DNA of 38,693 bases. It comes from Syntrophus aciditrophicus (GTDB lineage Bacteria > Desulfobacterota > Syntrophia > Syntrophales > UBA5619). Made by a program: the position numbers and the translations under genes. The DNA is taken from contig DYLD01000009.1 in the NCBI GenBank assembly GCA_020722315.1, forward strand, positions 1 through 38,693, given 5' to 3'. This document shows positions 28,599 through 37,851 of the stretch, piece after piece (positions within the stretch are counted from its first letter, which is position 1; every line of letters starts with the position of its first letter). The notes beneath the pieces were generated by a model, which worked only from the letters and a program-made list of their open reading frames with translations, made no database searches and was not told the DNA's origin.

Positions 28599-28970
28599 TT
28601 AGGTGGTTTTAGGAGATGTGATATGGGGCTGATGACCTATTGCATACACGCCCCATGCGGTCAGAACAACCACGACTAGCCCCACAATCACATCGTTCCA
28701 CACCGCGGCCGCTACTGCCGTGTACCCGAGCAGAAAAGGCGAAATGATCAGCCAAACGCCCAAAATGAGGTTAATCCAGTCCAGTGTTTTGTCGGTCGTT
28801 TCCGCTTTCGAAACGGCAGCCCAGATACCCAAAATGATCAGTGCCAGGCCGATGATAACCGCATTCCACATCGCGGTCGAGGTCGTCGAATAACCCAAAA
28901 CAAAAGCAGCTATCAGTTCCCAGAGCCCCACGATGGCAACCAACCAGCTAAGTGTCCTTTGTGTATTCAT
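28599..28970 (-). CDS. SPW-repeat membrane protein
   Basis: A 123-residue protein made of two copies of a unit of about 55 residues, each with two membrane segments (four in all). The second copy reads LDWINLILGVWLIISPFLLGY then VWNDVIVGL, matching the SPW repeat family; the first is LSWLVAIVGLWELIAAFVLGY then MWNAVIIGL, in which the SP of the motif is replaced by AA. Function of the family is unknown; it is found in many inner-membrane proteins. AAGGAGG precedes ATG 28970. It is a single-gene unit with a strong terminator and, perhaps, a long leader. Confidence 0.85.
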   Translation of the reverse strand: MNTQRTLSWLVAIVGLWELIAAFVLGYSTTSTAMWNAVIIGLALIILGIWAAVSKAETTDKTLDWINLILGVWLIISPFLLGYTAVAAAVWNDVIVGLVVVVLTAWGVYAIGHQPHITSPKTT

Positions 28971-29524: not shown

Positions 29525-31057
29525 TCATTTTTTCAAAGGCCCGTAGAGCTTCTGAAACTTTTCGAGCATCTTACGCGGCGTTACCGTTTCCCTTTCGTAT
29601 CTGGGAAGGTCTTTCTGTATGCCGAAGAGATACTTGGCAATGCTCTTCAGGTTTTCGAGGTCGTATCTCGACATCATCGTGATCGTTTCCATCTGAGGCG
29701 ATCCTCCGCCGTGCAACCCCGCCACCTGTGAAACACCCGCCAGTTCTGAAACCAGCATATTCTCCAGACCACGGAAACACCTGTGCTGGTTTTCGGCCGT
29801 TATCTTGGGATTTCTCATCAGGTATTTGTTCGCAAGTTTCCCTGTTTCGTCGGAGAAAAATTCCTCCTCAAAAGGCATCGTTGCACATAAACCCCCGGCA
29901 AGATCCGCAACGATTTTGAACTCGTTGTAAATTTCTTCGCCTGCCAGTCTCCTGCCGGCGTTTGTCAAAACCTCATCGGGTATATAGGTCCCCGAGGCGG
30001 ATTTCTCGGCACGATGGGCACTCATCTGGCCCGCGGCAAAGACAAGTTCCGCGACGCCGATGATATGCGATATCTTTTCCCGAACATGATCCTCTTTTTC
30101 TATGCCATTGTATTCCGCTACAAGTGATGCGGCACTGGCCAGAACTTCCGATGTCGCAGGTTTGCATCCGGTGTAGGAGTGTCTGTGGAAATGGGCAAAA
30201 AGTAACGCGAGGAAACCGGCAAAAGGTGTCTGTCGCGGATCACCCTTTCCGTCAAGGAAAACCCGCTCTCTGGGCACGAAAACATCGTCAAAGATAGTGT
30301 ATGACTCGGCATCCCCTATTTCCGCGATCGGAGCCGGCAGGTATTTTCGTTTATGGTTGTAGGCAGGTCTGACAAGCATTTTTACGCCATCCCAATCAGC
30401 CGGCACCGCAAACGCGACGGCATAGTCGCTGTCTTTATCGGACATAAATCTGGTCGGTATCGCGATGATCTCATCACTTACAGGGGCCGTCGTATTATCA
30501 ATCTTGGCCCCTCTGACAACAATCCCGTCCGGTCTGCTTTCGACAATCCTAAGGTAAAGATCGGGATCTTCCTGCTCATGGGGTCTTTTGACTCTGTTTC
30601 CTTTAACATCAGTCTGAGCGCAGTTGGCGGTTATATCGTTATCCTGCCAGTATCTTAGATATTTAAGGAAGTTTTGATTGACATCGGTACCAAGCATCTG
30701 ATCCATTTCATAGGTGACTACCGAAAGGGCATTCATCGAATCTATCCCCATGCATCTCATAATGCAGCCCCCGACTCTGTGACAGATAAGCTTGGTCATA
30801 AGTTGCTTTTTCAAGAGATCATCTACGCTTTGATGGATATGCGTAAAACGATTTATCTTCTCCCCGGTCAGATGGGATACCGCGGTCGCCAGACCATCCC
30901 ACTCGGGATCATTTGCACGGTCGTAAGTTTCTCGGATAACACGTAGTTGTCCGGCAAGCCGCTCGTCCATCCGATCGCATCTGCTGCCGCCAATGTAGAG
31001 GTTCCTTTTCATCTTCTTCAGGCGTTCCAGATACTCGTCGTATGTTTTTATTCCCAT
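29525..31057 (-). CDS. abfD: 4-hydroxybutyryl-CoA dehydratase / vinylacetyl-CoA isomerase family protein
   Basis: A 510-residue protein of the HpaB-like FAD family. The clostridial enzyme binds a [4Fe-4S] cluster through three Cys and one His and makes crotonyl-CoA from 4-hydroxybutyryl-CoA. Here C98 and C102 (GGCIMRCMGID), H291 and C298 (HRHSYTGCK) keep the same spacing, one residue offset from the clostridial numbering, and the following Lys (K299) is also kept. This supports a working dehydratase rather than a simple HpaB hydroxylase. GGGGGT precedes ATG 31057. It is divergent from the TetR gene and close to beta-oxidation genes that could use crotonyl-CoA. The physiological substrate is inferred. 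Confidence 0.88.
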   Translation of the reverse strand: MGIKTYDEYLERLKKMKRNLYIGGSRCDRMDERLAGQLRVIRETYDRANDPEWDGLATAVSHLTGEKINRFTHIHQSVDDLLKKQLMTKLICHRVGGCIMRCMGIDSMNALSVVTYEMDQMLGTDVNQNFLKYLRYWQDNDITANCAQTDVKGNRVKRPHEQEDPDLYLRIVESRPDGIVVRGAKIDNTTAPVSDEIIAIPTRFMSDKDSDYAVAFAVPADWDGVKMLVRPAYNHKRKYLPAPIAEIGDAESYTIFDDVFVPRERVFLDGKGDPRQTPFAGFLALLFAHFHRHSYTGCKPATSEVLASAASLVAEYNGIEKEDHVREKISHIIGVAELVFAAGQMSAHRAEKSASGTYIPDEVLTNAGRRLAGEEIYNEFKIVADLAGGLCATMPFEEEFFSDETGKLANKYLMRNPKITAENQHRCFRGLENMLVSELAGVSQVAGLHGGGSPQMETITMMSRYDLENLKSIAKYLFGIQKDLPRYERETVTPRKMLEKFQKLYGPLKK

Positions 31058-31143: not shown

Positions 31144-31253
31144 GCCGTTTTTGTTACACCCGAAAGGCACTCCGCAGGATTCGTTATTTTCTCGTGTCTC
31201 GGTCAATATTTTTTCTTGACAGAAAAAAAATAATAGGGTAGGGCGCAGATTAA

Positions 31254-31284
31254 TGACCATTGGTCATATAATGACCGTCGGTCA
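31254..31284. promoter_or_regulatory. Twin palindromic operator around a TATAAT, probable TetR-regulator site
   Basis: TGACCAtTGGTCA (31254-31266) and TGACCGtCGGTCA (31272-31284) are perfect 6-1-6 palindromes, 18 bp from centre to centre. A perfect TATAAT (31267-31272) lies between them and touches the second. They are in the gap between the divergent dehydratase and TetR genes, so binding by the TetR product would block a rightward promoter here. No good -35 is seen for that -10. A separate TTGACA lies at 31216-31221. Confidence 0.7.
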
Positions 31285-31463
31285 GCAACATAGGGCGGTA
31301 CAGCTTTCGCGGCCTATGCGAATTTTTTTGATTTTTGATTCAGTGCATGGTTGACATTCATGAGCGCTTCGATTGGGCCGGCGGGGTTCATCTGTGCCAT
31401 TTTTCTCCAACGCACCGTTTCCGGAAGAAATGATTCAAAAAACCTATGTTAAAGGTGCTGAAC

Positions 31464-32105
31464 GTGGGACTTGAAGAACGAAGAAAAAGGGAACGCGAAA
31501 ACCGAAAGAACGCAATCATCAGGGCCGCACGACGATTGTTCTTCGAAAAGGGTTTTAAATCGGTAACAGTAGAGAGTATTGCAAAGAGGGCTGAACTCAG
31601 CAAGGGCGCGATCTACCTCCATTATAAGAGTAAAGAAGAAATTTACGCCCATATCCTTCTCGGCGATATTGGAAAATTTCACGAACGCTTTGCGGATCTG
31701 ATTGAAGAATCCTCCAGTGCCTCTGAGGCATTGATGCGTTTTGCAGAGATTTATATCGATTTCTTTCTCCACGACAGCGAAGTCTTCAGAAGTCTGATGA
31801 ATTTCATGATTCATGCGGCCGAAATGAATCTGCCGGCCGATCTTTATAAAGAGTCGATAAAAACCACGAATAAAACAATCAATATTATAGATAGCATACT
31901 CGAATACGGTATCAAGTCCGGCGAGTTTAACCCCGATATACATTTCCACGCCAAGCGGAATGCGATATGGGGGATGTTGAACGGAATTATTTCTCTCTAC
32001 ATCTTTACAAGCAACGAAGAAAAAAGGGCCGAGCTGATCAGGAACACCATCAAGGAAGGCATGGATACATTCATACGGGGTCTGAAGGTCAACCAGAAGA
32101 TTTAG
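31464..32105 (+). CDS. TetR/AcrR-family transcriptional regulator
   Basis: A 213-residue regulator. The N-terminal helix-turn-helix domain (about residues 15-60) has AARRLFFEKGFKSVTVESIA and LSKGAIYLHYKSKEEIY, typical of the family; the rest is a helical ligand domain. GTG 31464 was chosen because AAAGGTG lies 6 nt upstream; ATG 31446 in the same frame would add six residues but has no ribosome-binding site. It precedes the acyl-CoA dehydrogenase gene by 46 bases and may be cotranscribed. By position it probably senses an acyl-CoA and controls the beta-oxidation genes, the dehydratase and itself through the palindromes at 31254-31284. Ligand is inferred. Confidence 0.9.
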   Translation: MGLEERRKRERENRKNAIIRAARRLFFEKGFKSVTVESIAKRAELSKGAIYLHYKSKEEIYAHILLGDIGKFHERFADLIEESSSASEALMRFAEIYIDFFLHDSEVFRSLMNFMIHAAEMNLPADLYKESIKTTNKTINIIDSILEYGIKSGEFNPDIHFHAKRNAIWGMLNGIISLYIFTSNEEKRAELIRNTIKEGMDTFIRGLKVNQKI

Positions 32106-32151: not shown

Positions 32152-34011
32152 ATGAGTAATTTACTGGTTAATGGGAGAGATCAGCAGTTCATTCTTTTCG
32201 AACAGTTGGAGATACAAAAACTGTTCGAAACGGAAGCATTCAAGGATTTTTCAAAGGATGATGCATTGATGATTCTCTCCGAAGCCGAAAAGATCGCGGT
32301 CAACGTGCTTCTTCCCACCTATGTCGAGGCCGACAGGGAAGGGTGCACTTTCAAGGACGGAAATGTTTATGTCCCCAAAGGTTATCATGACGCGTACAAA
32401 AAATTTATTGAAGGGGGGTGGATGATAGCCAACGAATCTCCCGAGGTAGGCGGTCAGGGAATACCGGTGGCTTTGTACGAGGCGGCACAGGAGATATGCA
32501 GCGCCGCGAATGTATCGTTTTTGATGCTTCCCGGTCTTACCCACGGCGCGGCGAAACTGATTGAGGAATACGGAACAGAGGAACAGAAGAAAAAATACAT
32601 GGAGAAGATGTACGCGGGCATCTGGGCGGGTACGATGTGCCTGACCGAACCCGGGGCCGGAAGCGATGTGGGGGCCCTGAAAACAACGGCAAAAAGACTA
32701 CCTGACGGCACATTCAGCATAACTGGCACCAAATCATTCATCTCTTTTGGCGATCATGATGTTACCGAAAACATCATCCATCCGGTGCTAGCAAGGATTG
32801 AAGGAGACCCTCCCGGCACGAGCGGTATTTCTATCTTTATCGTACCGAAATTCCGCGTGAACGCCGATGGAAGCATCGGTGAACTGAACGATGTTCATAC
32901 CGGCAATATCGAGCACAAGATGGGTATTCACGGTTCGCCCACCTGCACCCTCAATTTTGGTGATGAAGGAAAATGCATCGGGGAACTGCTCGGCAACGAA
33001 CAGGAAGGCATGAAGATCATGTTTTTGATGATGAACGAGGCCCGTCTCAGTGTGGGGCTGCAGGGTCTGAGCCTTTCTTCCGTCGCTCTGGAGCACGCGA
33101 TTTCGTATGCAAAGGAGAGAGTTCAGAGCATACTGGTATGGGAGAAGAAAAACCCAGATGCCAAACCGGTTCCGATCATACAGCACCCCGACGTTCGCAG
33201 GGATCTTCTCTGGATGAAGTCCCATGTCGAAGGTATCAGGGCAATGAACTACTTTACCGCCTATTGCATGGACATGGCCAAGGCGAAGCCTGATGAAAAG
33301 GATAAATGGGGTGGATTCGTAGAACTTTTGACGCCGATCTGTAAGGCGTACTCGTCGGACAAGGGAATGGAAATCTGCTCGACGGCGATTGACGTCTACG
33401 GCGGTTACGGGTACTGCCAGGAATATCCGGTAGAACAGTACCTTCGGGATTGCAAGATCGCAACAGTTTATGAGGGAACCAACGGCATTCAGTCGCTGGA
33501 TCTCGTCGGCCGTAAACTCGCCCAGAATAAGGGCATGAACATTATGAACCTGTTTGGTGAGATTGCCGCGGATATTGCAAAAGCGAAGGCGGTCGAGGAA
33601 TTGAAGACCTACGCACAGAAACTGGAAGAGTCGTACAACGCTCTTGTCGATCTTACGATGTCATTCGCTCAATATGGCAAGTCTTCGAGTTTCATCATTC
33701 CCCTTTTGTACGCGTCTTCGTATCTTCAAATTTTCGGGGACGTTCTTGTCGGCCATTTTCTCATGCAGGCCGCGAGGATTTCCGCTGAAAAACTGAAAAC
33801 AATTTACGAGGAAAAAGGCGCAGAGGGCTCAAAGGCCAAACAGAGGGCGCTTGTCCGCCAAAATCCGGATGTTGCGTTCTATAACGGCAAAATCGCCTCT
33901 GCAAAATTTTTTGCGGTTGAGGTTCTTTCGACAGTGAAGGCGCGCTGCGAAGCGATCAAAACGGAGGAAAAGGTTGCGTTTGAAATGGCGGAGGAATCGT
34001 TTACCTGTTAA
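32152..34011 (+). CDS. fadE: Acyl-CoA dehydrogenase, long form
   Basis: A 619-residue FAD enzyme that introduces the trans-2 double bond into acyl-CoA. The acyl-CoA dehydrogenase core has GTMCLTEPGAGSDVG (FAD/substrate region) and the catalytic base E441 in VYEGTNGIQ. About 150 C-terminal residues extend beyond the usual core, as in the 600-residue class that includes Bacillus FadE. AAAAGGAGG precedes ATG 32152. It starts the set fadE-fadN-fadA. In a syntroph, electrons would pass to ETF and on to the membrane; no etf genes are in the window. Chain length preference cannot be read from sequence. Confidence 0.92.
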   Translation: MSNLLVNGRDQQFILFEQLEIQKLFETEAFKDFSKDDALMILSEAEKIAVNVLLPTYVEADREGCTFKDGNVYVPKGYHDAYKKFIEGGWMIANESPEVGGQGIPVALYEAAQEICSAANVSFLMLPGLTHGAAKLIEEYGTEEQKKKYMEKMYAGIWAGTMCLTEPGAGSDVGALKTTAKRLPDGTFSITGTKSFISFGDHDVTENIIHPVLARIEGDPPGTSGISIFIVPKFRVNADGSIGELNDVHTGNIEHKMGIHGSPTCTLNFGDEGKCIGELLGNEQEGMKIMFLMMNEARLSVGLQGLSLSSVALEHAISYAKERVQSILVWEKKNPDAKPVPIIQHPDVRRDLLWMKSHVEGIRAMNYFTAYCMDMAKAKPDEKDKWGGFVELLTPICKAYSSDKGMEICSTAIDVYGGYGYCQEYPVEQYLRDCKIATVYEGTNGIQSLDLVGRKLAQNKGMNIMNLFGEIAADIAKAKAVEELKTYAQKLEESYNALVDLTMSFAQYGKSSSFIIPLLYASSYLQIFGDVLVGHFLMQAARISAEKLKTIYEEKGAEGSKAKQRALVRQNPDVAFYNGKIASAKFFAVEVLSTVKARCEAIKTEEKVAFEMAEESFTC

Positions 34012-34145: not shown

Positions 34146-36566
34146 ATGGCATACGAAATAAAAAAGGCCGCCGTTCTTGGCGCCGGGGTTATGGGCGCCG
34201 CGATCGCGGCGCATTTGACCAATGCCGGCATTGAATGCGCGCTTCTGGATATTATCCCATTTGAATTGACCGATGCCGACAAGGCAAAGGGGCTGACCGA
34301 AAAGAGTCCGGAGTGGAGGAACCGTTTTGCGCAAACGGGTCTTGCCAATGCATTAAAATCAAAGCCGGCCTCATTTTTTTCCAAGAAAAATGCCTCGCTG
34401 ATCAAAACCGGCAATTTCGATGACAATCTGAACTGGCTTGCCGACGTGGATTGGGTGATAGAGGCTGTTGTCGAAAACCTGAAGATCAAACAGGAGCTTT
34501 TTTCGAAGGTGGAAAAGATTGTCAGGCCGGATTGTATCGTTACTACAAATACGTCTGGCATCCCAATGAGGGATATTTCGGCGAATTTCGGCCCGAAACT
34601 CAAGGGGCAGTTCTTGGGAACGCATTTTTTTAACCCTCCCAGGTACATGAAACTTTTGGAAGTCATCCCCGGAGAAGAAACAAAACCTGAGGTTGTTAGA
34701 TTCATGACCGATTTCTGTGAGACGATATTAGGGAAAGGTGTGGTCATCAGCAAGGACGTTCCTAATTTTGTCGGGAACCGCATCGGCACTTACGACATTT
34801 CCAATGCGGTTCATCTGATGCTTGAAAAGAGCCTCAGGATTGATGAATTGGACGCAATTATCAGCAAGGCTCTGGGGCGGCCAGGTTCAGGCATCTTCGG
34901 AACGTTGGATATTGTCGGTCTCGATACCGGGCAAAATGTGATGAAGAACCTCTATGCTGCCGTCCCTGACGATGAGATGCGCGAGATGTTTGTCCAGGCC
35001 GATTTCATGAACAAGATGGTCGAACGAAAATGGCTCGGCAACAAGACCAAGCAGGGATTCTACAAAAAAACAAAAGACGCCAGGGGTAAAAGCGTGAAAT
35101 TGGTTATTGATTACAACACCATGGAGTATTTACCTGCTGGTCGCCCAAGATTTGCATCGGTCTCATCTGCGCTGAAGAAAAGCGATGAAGGAGCCGCGGC
35201 GATGATTAAAGAGATATTCAACGGCGCCGATGTTGCGGCGGAGCTGGCCAGGGAATATCTCTGCAATAACTTCATTTACGCGGCGAACCGTGTTCCTGAA
35301 ATATCGGAGACGATCGTCGGCATAGATAACGCGATGAAATGGGGTTACAACCACCAGCTCGGGCCTTTTGAGACCTGGGACGCGGTTGGCGTGCGCGAAG
35401 CGGTTGATGTTATGAAAAAGCTCAAGAAGAAGGTTCCCGAAAAGGTTCAGGAGATGCTGAAAAAGAAATTTGAGACCTTTTACCTTCAGAAAGAAGACGG
35501 CCGGTACTACTATGATTTTAGCAAAAAGGATTACGTCAAACTCGAAACAGACTCGCGGATTATCGTTCTCTCTGATCTGAAATCGCAAAATAAAAAGGTT
35601 GCCGGAAACGGCAGCGCGTCGCTGGTTGATATTGGCGACGGCGTTGCCTGCCTTGAATTTCACACCAAGATGAACGCGATTGACGATGGCATGATCGAGA
35701 TGATTCAAAAGAGCTGCGATATCGTTGAAAAGGACTTTGTCGGCATGGTCGTAGGAAATCATGGCGTAAACTTTTCGGCGGGGGCGAATATCTTTAAGGT
35801 CCTCATGGCTGCCCAGAAAGGCGACTGGGATCTTTTAGAACAGCAGGTTGACGCTCTGCAAACGGCCAATATGCGCATGAAATACCTTTCCAAACCGGTC
35901 GTTACCGCCCCGGCGGGACTGGCCCTCGGAGGCGGCTGCGAGATGGCGATGCATGGCGTAAAATGTCTTCCCCATGGCGAAACCTATATGGGCCTTGTTG
36001 AGGTGGGAGTCGGCCTGATCCCTGCCGGAGGGGGGTGCAAGGAACTGGCGCTGAGGATGACGGAAGGTCTTCCCGAAGGGGTTGTTGAAGCAGGGCAGAA
36101 TATGCAACACCTGTATATGAAGGCCTTGGAAAATATTGCAATGGCAAAGGTTTCAACAAGCGCCGCGGAGGCTATGGAATTGGGCTATATCAGGAAGACT
36201 GAGAATATCAGTCTTTCAAGGGATCAACATATCTGGAACGCAAAACAGATGGTTCTGGGTCTTCAAAAATTCTATAGAAAACCTTTCCCTGTTTTGATTC
36301 CGGTCATGGGAGAAAACTTGAGGGGATTGGCTGAGGCGATGTTTTACAACATGCTTCATGGTAATTATATGTCTGAATACGACATGCATGTGGCACGCAA
36401 GGTTGCGTACATACTCTCCGGAGGTGATTGCGCCGAAGGAACCTTTGTTTCGGAAAAAGAGCTTCTCGATCTGGAGAAGGAATCCTTCTTAAGCCTGTGC
36501 GGCGAGAAGAAAACGCAGGATAGAATTATGTACATGCTCAATACTGGCAAGCCGTTGCGCAACTAA
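34146..36566 (+). CDS. fadN: Fused 3-hydroxyacyl-CoA dehydrogenase/enoyl-CoA hydratase, FadN type
   Basis: An 806-residue bifunctional beta-oxidation enzyme. The N-terminal NAD-binding fold has GAGVMG (12-17) and NTSGIPM; the C-terminal dehydrogenase domain follows, and a crotonase domain occupies about residues 490-720 with GGGCEMAMHG and LVEVGVGLIPAGGG, keeping both expected glutamates. The order dehydrogenase then hydratase is the reverse of E. coli FadB and matches Bacillus FadN. Together with the thiolase it turns enoyl-CoA into acetyl-CoA plus a shortened acyl-CoA. AGGAGGAAG precedes ATG 34146. The 134-bp gap before it shows no convincing promoter. Confidence 0.93.
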   Translation: MAYEIKKAAVLGAGVMGAAIAAHLTNAGIECALLDIIPFELTDADKAKGLTEKSPEWRNRFAQTGLANALKSKPASFFSKKNASLIKTGNFDDNLNWLADVDWVIEAVVENLKIKQELFSKVEKIVRPDCIVTTNTSGIPMRDISANFGPKLKGQFLGTHFFNPPRYMKLLEVIPGEETKPEVVRFMTDFCETILGKGVVISKDVPNFVGNRIGTYDISNAVHLMLEKSLRIDELDAIISKALGRPGSGIFGTLDIVGLDTGQNVMKNLYAAVPDDEMREMFVQADFMNKMVERKWLGNKTKQGFYKKTKDARGKSVKLVIDYNTMEYLPAGRPRFASVSSALKKSDEGAAAMIKEIFNGADVAAELAREYLCNNFIYAANRVPEISETIVGIDNAMKWGYNHQLGPFETWDAVGVREAVDVMKKLKKKVPEKVQEMLKKKFETFYLQKEDGRYYYDFSKKDYVKLETDSRIIVLSDLKSQNKKVAGNGSASLVDIGDGVACLEFHTKMNAIDDGMIEMIQKSCDIVEKDFVGMVVGNHGVNFSAGANIFKVLMAAQKGDWDLLEQQVDALQTANMRMKYLSKPVVTAPAGLALGGGCEMAMHGVKCLPHGETYMGLVEVGVGLIPAGGGCKELALRMTEGLPEGVVEAGQNMQHLYMKALENIAMAKVSTSAAEAMELGYIRKTENISLSRDQHIWNAKQMVLGLQKFYRKPFPVLIPVMGENLRGLAEAMFYNMLHGNYMSEYDMHVARKVAYILSGGDCAEGTFVSEKELLDLEKESFLSLCGEKKTQDRIMYMLNTGKPLRN

Positions 36567-36654: not shown

Positions 36655-37851
36655 ATGAGCGATGCAGTGATTGTTGAATCGGTGAGAAGCGCCGGAGCGC
36701 GCTATAAACGCGGAGGTCTTGCCTATACAAGGGCTGACGATTATGCAATACAGGTTTTAAAGGGTCTTTTGGCGCGGGTTCCTCAACTGAAGCCTGAAGA
36801 TGTGGACGATATTATTGTCGGCTGCGCCTTTCCAGAGGCCGAACAGGGGATGAATCTCGGTCGTGTTCTTTCAGTAGGCGCTGGACTGCCCGTAACGACA
36901 TCGGGGATGACGGTTAACCGTTTTTGCTCCTCAGGTATTCAGGCCATAGCGGACGCGACGGCCAAGATCCGCGCCGGGTGGTCAGATGTCATTATTGCCG
37001 GCGGTGTTGAAACGATGACACATATCCCGATGGGCGGGTCTATTCTCCGTCCCAACCCTGACTGGGACTTTGATGCAGGGATGCCGAATGTTTATGTTTC
37101 GATGGGAATTACCGCGGAGAATGTCGCTGCCGACTATAAAATTTCGCGGGAAGACATGGATAAATTTGGGCTCGAGAGCAATCGCCGCGCCTATGAGGCG
37201 ATCAAGGCCGGGAAATTTAAAGAGGAAACCATTCCGGTAATGGCTACCCGTTACACGATTTCAAAAAATGGCAAAAGGATCAAAGAAAAGTTTGTTTTCG
37301 ATACCGATGACGGTGTTCGCTGGCCTTCTAAGCTTGAGGATATGGCAAAGCTTAAGTCTCCGTTTAAACAAGGCGGCAATGTGACAGCGGCGAACTCATC
37401 CCAGATGACGGACGGCGCCGCCTTTTCACTGCTGATGACGCCGGAAAAGGCCAAAGAGATCGGCGTAAAGCCTATTGCAAGGCTGGCTTATTACGCAGTA
37501 GCCGGAAATAGACCGGAAGAGATGGGTGTCGGACCTTCCTATGCGATTCCCAAGGTTCTTAAAATGGCAGGGCTTACGACAAAAGACATCGATGTTTTCG
37601 AGATCAACGAGGCATTTGCCTCCCAGTGTCTTTATTCGATCCGTCAGCTCGGACTTGAGGATCGCTATAAGGCCGGTGACGTCAATCCGAACGGTGGTGC
37701 GATCGCACTCGGCCATCCCCTTGGGTGCACCGGCGCGAAGCTGACCGCGCAATTGTTGCACGAAATGAAACGAAGGAAATCCAAAAGGGGGATCGTCTCA
37801 ATGTGCATCGGTGGCGGCATGGGAGCGGCAGGTATCTACGAGATGTTGTAG
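36655..37851 (+). CDS. fadA: Acetyl-CoA C-acyltransferase (beta-oxidation thiolase)
   Basis: A 398-residue thiolase that releases acetyl-CoA from 3-ketoacyl-CoA. All standard motifs are present: C91 in NRFCSSGIQA, INEAFASQ, H354 in GHPLGCTGAK, and C384 in MCIGGGMG. AAAAGGAGGAG precedes ATG 36655, 88 bases after fadN. This closes the fadE-fadN-fadA set, the same gene content as the Bacillus fadNAE operon in a different order. A small terminator-like hairpin lies downstream at 37935. Confidence 0.94.
   Translation: MSDAVIVESVRSAGARYKRGGLAYTRADDYAIQVLKGLLARVPQLKPEDVDDIIVGCAFPEAEQGMNLGRVLSVGAGLPVTTSGMTVNRFCSSGIQAIADATAKIRAGWSDVIIAGGVETMTHIPMGGSILRPNPDWDFDAGMPNVYVSMGITAENVAADYKISREDMDKFGLESNRRAYEAIKAGKFKEETIPVMATRYTISKNGKRIKEKFVFDTDDGVRWPSKLEDMAKLKSPFKQGGNVTAANSSQMTDGAAFSLLMTPEKAKEIGVKPIARLAYYAVAGNRPEEMGVGPSYAIPKVLKMAGLTTKDIDVFEINEAFASQCLYSIRQLGLEDRYKAGDVNPNGGAIALGHPLGCTGAKLTAQLLHEMKRRKSKRGIVSMCIGGGMGAAGIYEML

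Follow-up and report, generated by a model that had tools for sequence, protein, structure and literature searches.

TetR-type repressors of β-oxidation and operators which accommodate more than one TetR dimer are already known, as described in the accessible parts of PMC6449355 and PMC4150764. Bacillus subtilis FadR has the TetR fold (3whc) and exerts an acyl-CoA-responsive control of β-oxidation, i.e., the role proposed here; it differs in that the protein of the present locus scores below the NCBIfam FadR cut-off and shares only about 24% identity with it in a structural alignment. FadRSa from Sulfolobus acidocaldarius is, according to the accessible text of PMC6449355, another TetR-type β-oxidation repressor with few genomic sites, and two of its dimers can occupy a single operator in a cooperative manner. 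There the second dimer binds the same inverted repeat as the first, to one side of it, whereas the units at our locus are separate and phased by 18 bp. QacR and CprB also bring two dimers to one operator, and QacR ties as a structural match; in the accessible part of PMC4150764, however, these dimers occupy opposite sides of a single site of 22-32 bp, unlike the non-overlapping 13-bp units with 5-bp linkers found here. The TetR tetO pair (PMC3511530) likewise places two palindromic operators close to the gene of the regulator, but tetR and tetA are divergent, whereas the target that recurs in the present case is the operon to which the regulator gene itself belongs. Finally, SbtR and TTHB023 of Thermus thermophilus have TGACY-type half-sites; in the accessible portions of PMC4948773 and PMC7022988 the inner spacer is 4 bp (SbtR: TGACYrnnyRGTCA, 14 bp), versus 3 bp in the 13-bp unit described below.

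In a literature search which extended to few subscription journals, no paper among the matches listed dealt with this Syntrophales regulon, with a regulator of syntrophic fatty-acid oxidation in this order or with an 18-bp array of one to four units. Bacteria that oxidize fatty acids in syntrophy have to live near the energetic limit, and methane formation is fed by them. The naphthalene review PMC12016498, considered as a source on TetR, was rejected: in the 12 of 14 places covered, the matches to TetR were 'tetra-' words.

The window, i.e., the whole stretch of 38,693 nucleotides that was analysed, carries two palindromes ahead of a TetR-type gene. From sequence comparisons we consider it highly probable that they constitute a tandem operator of the adjacent, autoregulatory FadR-like TetR repressor, which is predicted to control fatty-acid oxidation genes. 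If this is right, it provides an operator sequence, a protein and a list of targets which could be tested in vitro with no need to grow the organism.

The palindrome pair and its putative promoter

An earlier note on this DNA had reported two perfect 13-bp palindromes 18 bp apart, and both are indeed present (Table 1). They are spaced by 18 bp from start to start with TATAA between them; the final T of the hexamer TATAAT (31267-31272) is at the same time the first base of unit 2. The note had seen no other copy in the window, and this was borne out. At up to two mismatches 10 unit matches are present versus 12.7 expected from shuffles; consequently, the two exact copies are all that stands out. 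The genome scan which it had proposed was carried out: in the 3.02-Mb host assembly (422 contigs) TGACCNNNGGTCA occurs exactly twice, both times in the window pair. From its base composition one would expect this assembly to contain about 2.7 chance copies of the exact single site, but about 2e-6 tandem pairs at the fixed 18-bp spacing. A chance origin of the pair was rejected. The 31-bp double motif at up to three mismatches has one other place in the host genome (C195:14092-14122, 2 mismatches).

A further claim, that the spacing of nearly two helical turns would put two dimers on related faces of the DNA, does not follow from the distance. A register of 18 bp corresponds to 1.71 turns; each dimer would be turned by about 257 degrees relative to the one before, and the series would spiral around the helix.

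Table 1. Positions of the operator, putative promoter elements and genes in the window
Feature	Position	Strand	Remarks
Operator unit 1	31254..31266	+	TGACCATTGGTCA; perfect palindrome, 13 bp
Linker TATAA	31267..31271	+	with the next T reads TATAAT; not a conserved -10
Operator unit 2	31272..31284	+	TGACCGTCGGTCA; perfect palindrome, 18-bp register
Third slot of the 18-bp register	31290..31302	+	empty in the window (ATAGGGCGGTACA); filled in some relatives
Putative -35 element TTGACA, tetR operon	31216..31221	+	38 bp 5' of operator
Putative -10 element TAGGGC (weak)	31239..31244	+	17 bp past TTGACA
TetR-family regulator	31464..32105	+	probable GTG start; longest ORF from 31446; Pfam TetR_N
Acyl-CoA dehydrogenase acdH	32152..34011	+	first gene 3' of tetR; Pfam
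3-Hydroxyacyl-CoA dehydrogenase/enoyl-CoA hydratase, fused, fadB-like	34146..36566	+	Pfam, NCBIfam
Acetyl-CoA C-acyltransferase, fadA-like thiolase	36655..37851	+	TIGR01930 above cut-off
4-Hydroxybutyryl-CoA dehydratase/vinylacetyl-CoA isomerase-like (AbfD-like), divergent	29525..31057	-	PDB 1u8v 1.5e-98

The note had taken TATAAT for the -10 element of a promoter. That this hexamer is the real -10 of tetR, clamped by the repressor, is suggested by its perfect match and by the linkers of relatives, which often are TATA-like. The comparison of 87 homologous regions points elsewhere. An exact TATAAT is found in 7 of the 87 linkers, the window counted, whereas 62 regions have a perfect TTGACA at a distance of 30-46 bp upstream of the operator, and in 55 of these a TA follows 17 bp past it. 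A generic promoter scan of the window reported no plus-strand pair, neither TTGACA-TAGGGC nor any -35 for TATAAT; one minus-strand site overlapping unit 1 was reported, no more than shuffles give. We therefore regard a clamped TATAAT promoter as highly improbable; its appearance most likely is a by-product of an AT-rich linker and the first T of unit 2. With the conserved TTGACA-N17-TA upstream, the operator would begin about where transcription starts, and we infer a start near 31251. Between operator and start codon of tetR there is a terminator-like hairpin with a T run (31306-31322; 1 versus 0.7 in shuffles), which may be due to chance or may be a leader element.

Conservation of the unit upstream of tetR homologues

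Two sets of loci were combined. A search at E 1e-20 gave 70 tetR matches in 57 of 80 relatives. The analysis used 61 of them, 30 supplied directly as loci and 31 retrieved separately, and omitted 9 partial or weak ones. These were used together with 80 named loci, i.e., 80 of 137 related records found, with titles mostly reading Syntrophaceae, Syntrophales, Syntrophobacterales, Smithella or 'Deltaproteobacteria'. The 141 tetR regions were reduced to 102 that are distinct in the first 120 coding bases and to 100 with 250 upstream bases; these 100 include close paralogues, and the named and matched sets overlap in genomes.

The unit at up to one mismatch is present in 87 of these 100 non-redundant upstream regions and absent from 13; of 1994 control windows drawn from these loci, 16 contain it. 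The association of the sites with a TetR-type gene, as supposed in the earlier note, is thereby upheld. The consensus unit is TGACY-N3-RGTCA, 13 bp long, in one to four copies at a fixed period of 18 bp. The operator motif of B. subtilis FadR differs from the window unit. In 87 of 100 regions the half-sites are separated by an inner spacer of 3 bp, and no alternative length from 0 to 10 is seen in more than 3. Neither an SbtR-type operator, TGACY-N4-RGTCA (spacer 4: none of 100), nor an HcpR-type site, TTTGACC-N2-GGTCAAA (spacer 2: 2 of 100), describes these regions.

The conservation of unit 1 is partly by construction because it was picked at up to one mismatch; units 2 and 3 were not picked by mismatch, and their conservation is free of that selection. 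Seventy of the 87 regions have TGAC at +18. When further units with up to two mismatches were located from +14 to +60 of unit 1, starts were at +18 in 55 and at +36 in 17 regions, more rarely at +37 (2) and +54 (1). The majority consensus of the unselected unit 2 across the 87 regions is TGACCnnnGTTCA. Among these 87 regions, two exact units are found in this window alone. Such a strict 18-bp period combined with a variable copy number provides a natural series for studying how neighbouring TetR dimers cooperate.

With up to three mismatches tolerated in every unit after the first, the 80 named loci possessed no unit in 10 cases (one of them with just 175 bases upstream), one in 20, two in 29, three in 20 and four in a single case. 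The 20 single-unit operators argue for the 13-bp unit and disfavour GGTCA-N5-TGACC, paired across neighbouring units, as the binding unit. Eight loci (L139, L143, L149, L151, L153, L156, L158 and L160) share the single unit TGACCGYAAGTCA, and acdH, fadB and fadA were undetected 3' of their tetR genes.

Across genomes the array accompanies the regulator. The 31-bp pattern at up to one mismatch is found in 57 of the 80 relatives; the backward pattern, which served as the control, matches in none of them. Both TetR homologue (E 1e-20) and array are present in 52 relatives, the homologue alone in 5, the array alone in 5 and neither in 18; the two agree in 70 of 80 (Fisher p 2e-9, counts by hand), a value which overstates independence because the sequences are related by descent. 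Three of the 5 array-bearing genomes among the 23 without a detected homologue belong to the same family and have a completeness of 79-90%. In genus g22 of family f19 (G054, G065, G038, G073) neither a homologue at E 1e-20 nor an array was found; a profile search there yielded weaker TetR relatives (best 2.3e-20), and regulation probably differs in this genus.

This co-occurrence bears on the question whether the sites belong to another regulator, e.g., an HcpR-like CRP/FNR protein or a TetR paralogue. Several relatives contain more than one TetR homologue, and in the accessible text of PMC545781 HcpR of Desulfuromonas and Desulfotalea is predicted to act on ATTTGACCNNGGTCAAAT, the TGACC strings there belonging to the ModE and HcpR motifs. 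The HcpR spacer, however, is 2 bp as opposed to the 3 bp which prevail here, and the array tracks the tetR homologue from genome to genome. A different owner of the sites is very unlikely.

The regulator and its neighbours

The N-terminus of the window protein carries a TetR helix-turn-helix (PF00440, E 7.9e-17, 61.2 bits versus a cut-off of 24). Alignment A1, which took in 52 of the 61 tetR loci and in which the starts of the rows had been set to this place where a start codon allowed, has a homologue consensus beginning with MGLEERR; the likely start, then, is the GTG at 31464 and not the ATG at 31446. The AlphaFold model (pLDDT 88.8) has an all-helical TetR fold: 838 of 1000 aligned chains reach a Z of at least 8, with FadR and QacR in the top rows. 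The best Foldseek match is B. subtilis FadR with stearoyl-CoA (3whc), and VIA-align gives Z 18.9 for this structure over 186 residues at 3.0 Å, QacR being tied at 18.9. The score against NCBIfam FadR NF053878 is 80.8 bits, below the cut-off of 200; hence, the protein is FadR-like and not a proven or filed member of the FadR family. PfmR, which we take to be TTHB023, is also among the structural matches.

The genes 3' of tetR connect the operator with fatty-acid degradation. In the window the operator precedes acdH and the fadB- and fadA-like genes. Among the 80 named loci a homologue of acdH follows tetR in 48 and fadB without acdH in 12, i.e., acdH or fadB in 60, while none of acdH, fadB and fadA was found in 20, at least one of which is an incomplete locus.

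As we picture it, one TetR dimer would bind each unit; unit 1 would be filled first, as the primary site, and the occupancy would then spread to any additional units. The bound protein would cover the transcription start and block initiation by RNA polymerase, and in this manner the regulator would repress itself together with the fatty-acid oxidation genes until an acyl-CoA or a related CoA thioester derived from the growth substrate releases it. By analogy, relief by acyl-CoA is probable; the β-oxidation genes downstream and the structural similarity to the acyl-CoA-binding FadR make such a ligand plausible.

The earlier note had further described the site as the gap of a divergent pair. The divergent arrangement exists in the window, with an intergenic gap of about 406 bp between tetR and the AbfD-like gene, yet as a framing of the operator it is doubtful: the AbfD-like gene was undetected in all 80 named loci (10 hold less than 1500 bases 5' of tetR). 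An operator which mainly controls this 4-hydroxybutyryl-CoA dehydratase-like gene, in the fashion of tetR-tetA, would agree with the orientation of the genes, with a product that acts on CoA thioesters, and with the weak minus-strand promoter-like site over unit 1, which does not exceed the shuffles. Set against this are the absence of detection just mentioned and the width of the gap, beyond the 200-bp rule of PMC3511530. In the accessible part of that paper three of four TetR regulators with gaps above 200 bp have no action on the divergent gene and one activated it, and the rule has exceptions (AtuR, BpeR, Mce3R; 280-898 bp). The AbfD-like gene probably is not a conserved target, and we give a mainly divergent control little credence, although control in both directions may occur. 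A small SPW-repeat protein is encoded at 28599-28970 of the window, where its gene is flanked by the AbfD-like gene and by a second thiolase-like one.

Further sites and the candidate regulon

The conjecture that the motif defines a regulon elsewhere gained support. The second host site, with 2 mismatches, precedes acs-etfBA; the longest ORF of acs starts 17 bp past the site, TTGACA is located 45 bp before the site and TAGGAG 17 bp on from TTGACA. Apart from the seeds, 37 loci (L066-L102) are the matches listed in the search of the 80 relatives with the 31-bp pattern. Among these, acs or etfB lies 3' of the site in 21, 20 of them in relatives. An apparent ATP-synthase b'/b operon lies 3' of the array in six of the matches listed (L070, L083, L089, L093, L095 and L102), where one b' protein was confirmed by Pfam and L095 and L102 were called from a b-like ORF at +805. 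At L070 and L083 a TTGACA precedes the site only when the DNA is read towards atp. The same 37 listed loci comprise one site each leading to fadBA, a thiolase and a 3-hydroxyacyl-CoA dehydrogenase, two leading to nitronate monooxygenase-like genes, one at a TetR relative of 30% and one at a second tetR copy; at L078, L080 and L094 the contig ends too early for a target to be assigned.

We consider it possible, although on balance doubtful, that across much of the Syntrophales a single TetR controls the core functions by which syntrophic fatty-acid oxidation conserves energy, i.e., β-oxidation, electron-transfer flavoprotein, acetate-CoA ligase and, in some lineages, the ATP synthase, and that the number of units, from one to four, sets the tightness of each promoter with dimers spiralling on the DNA. 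The acetate-CoA ligase may run in the ATP-forming direction.

Among 155 genomes from the order Syntrophales, 85 contain an exact match to the relaxed 31-bp pattern. In a sample of the phylum (n = 395) 13 genomes match, 10 of 16 within the order and 3 of 379 outside. The three sites outside the order (L183 at 1419, L184 at 1501, L185 at 1501) are exact 18-bp double palindromes, each directly before a different TetR-family gene; the one at L184 is beside an HlyD-type gene. The presence of such arrays at other tetR genes suggests that the 18-bp arrangement may have existed before it came to serve the control of fatty-acid genes.

The array next to an HlyD-type gene and the equally good structural match to QacR, a drug sensor, would be compatible with a regulator which senses a ligand other than acyl-CoA, e.g., a drug-like or aromatic compound. 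The gene content speaks against this: β-oxidation genes follow tetR in the window and in three quarters of the named loci, and most other sites among the matches listed lead to acs or etfB. We judge a non-acyl-CoA ligand unlikely, and an acyl-CoA or related thioester remains the favoured effector.

One locus titled Acidobacteria bacterium (L116) has a tetR-acdH-fadB order, units and spacing which are those of the Syntrophaceae locus L117; its title possibly reflects an error of binning or naming.
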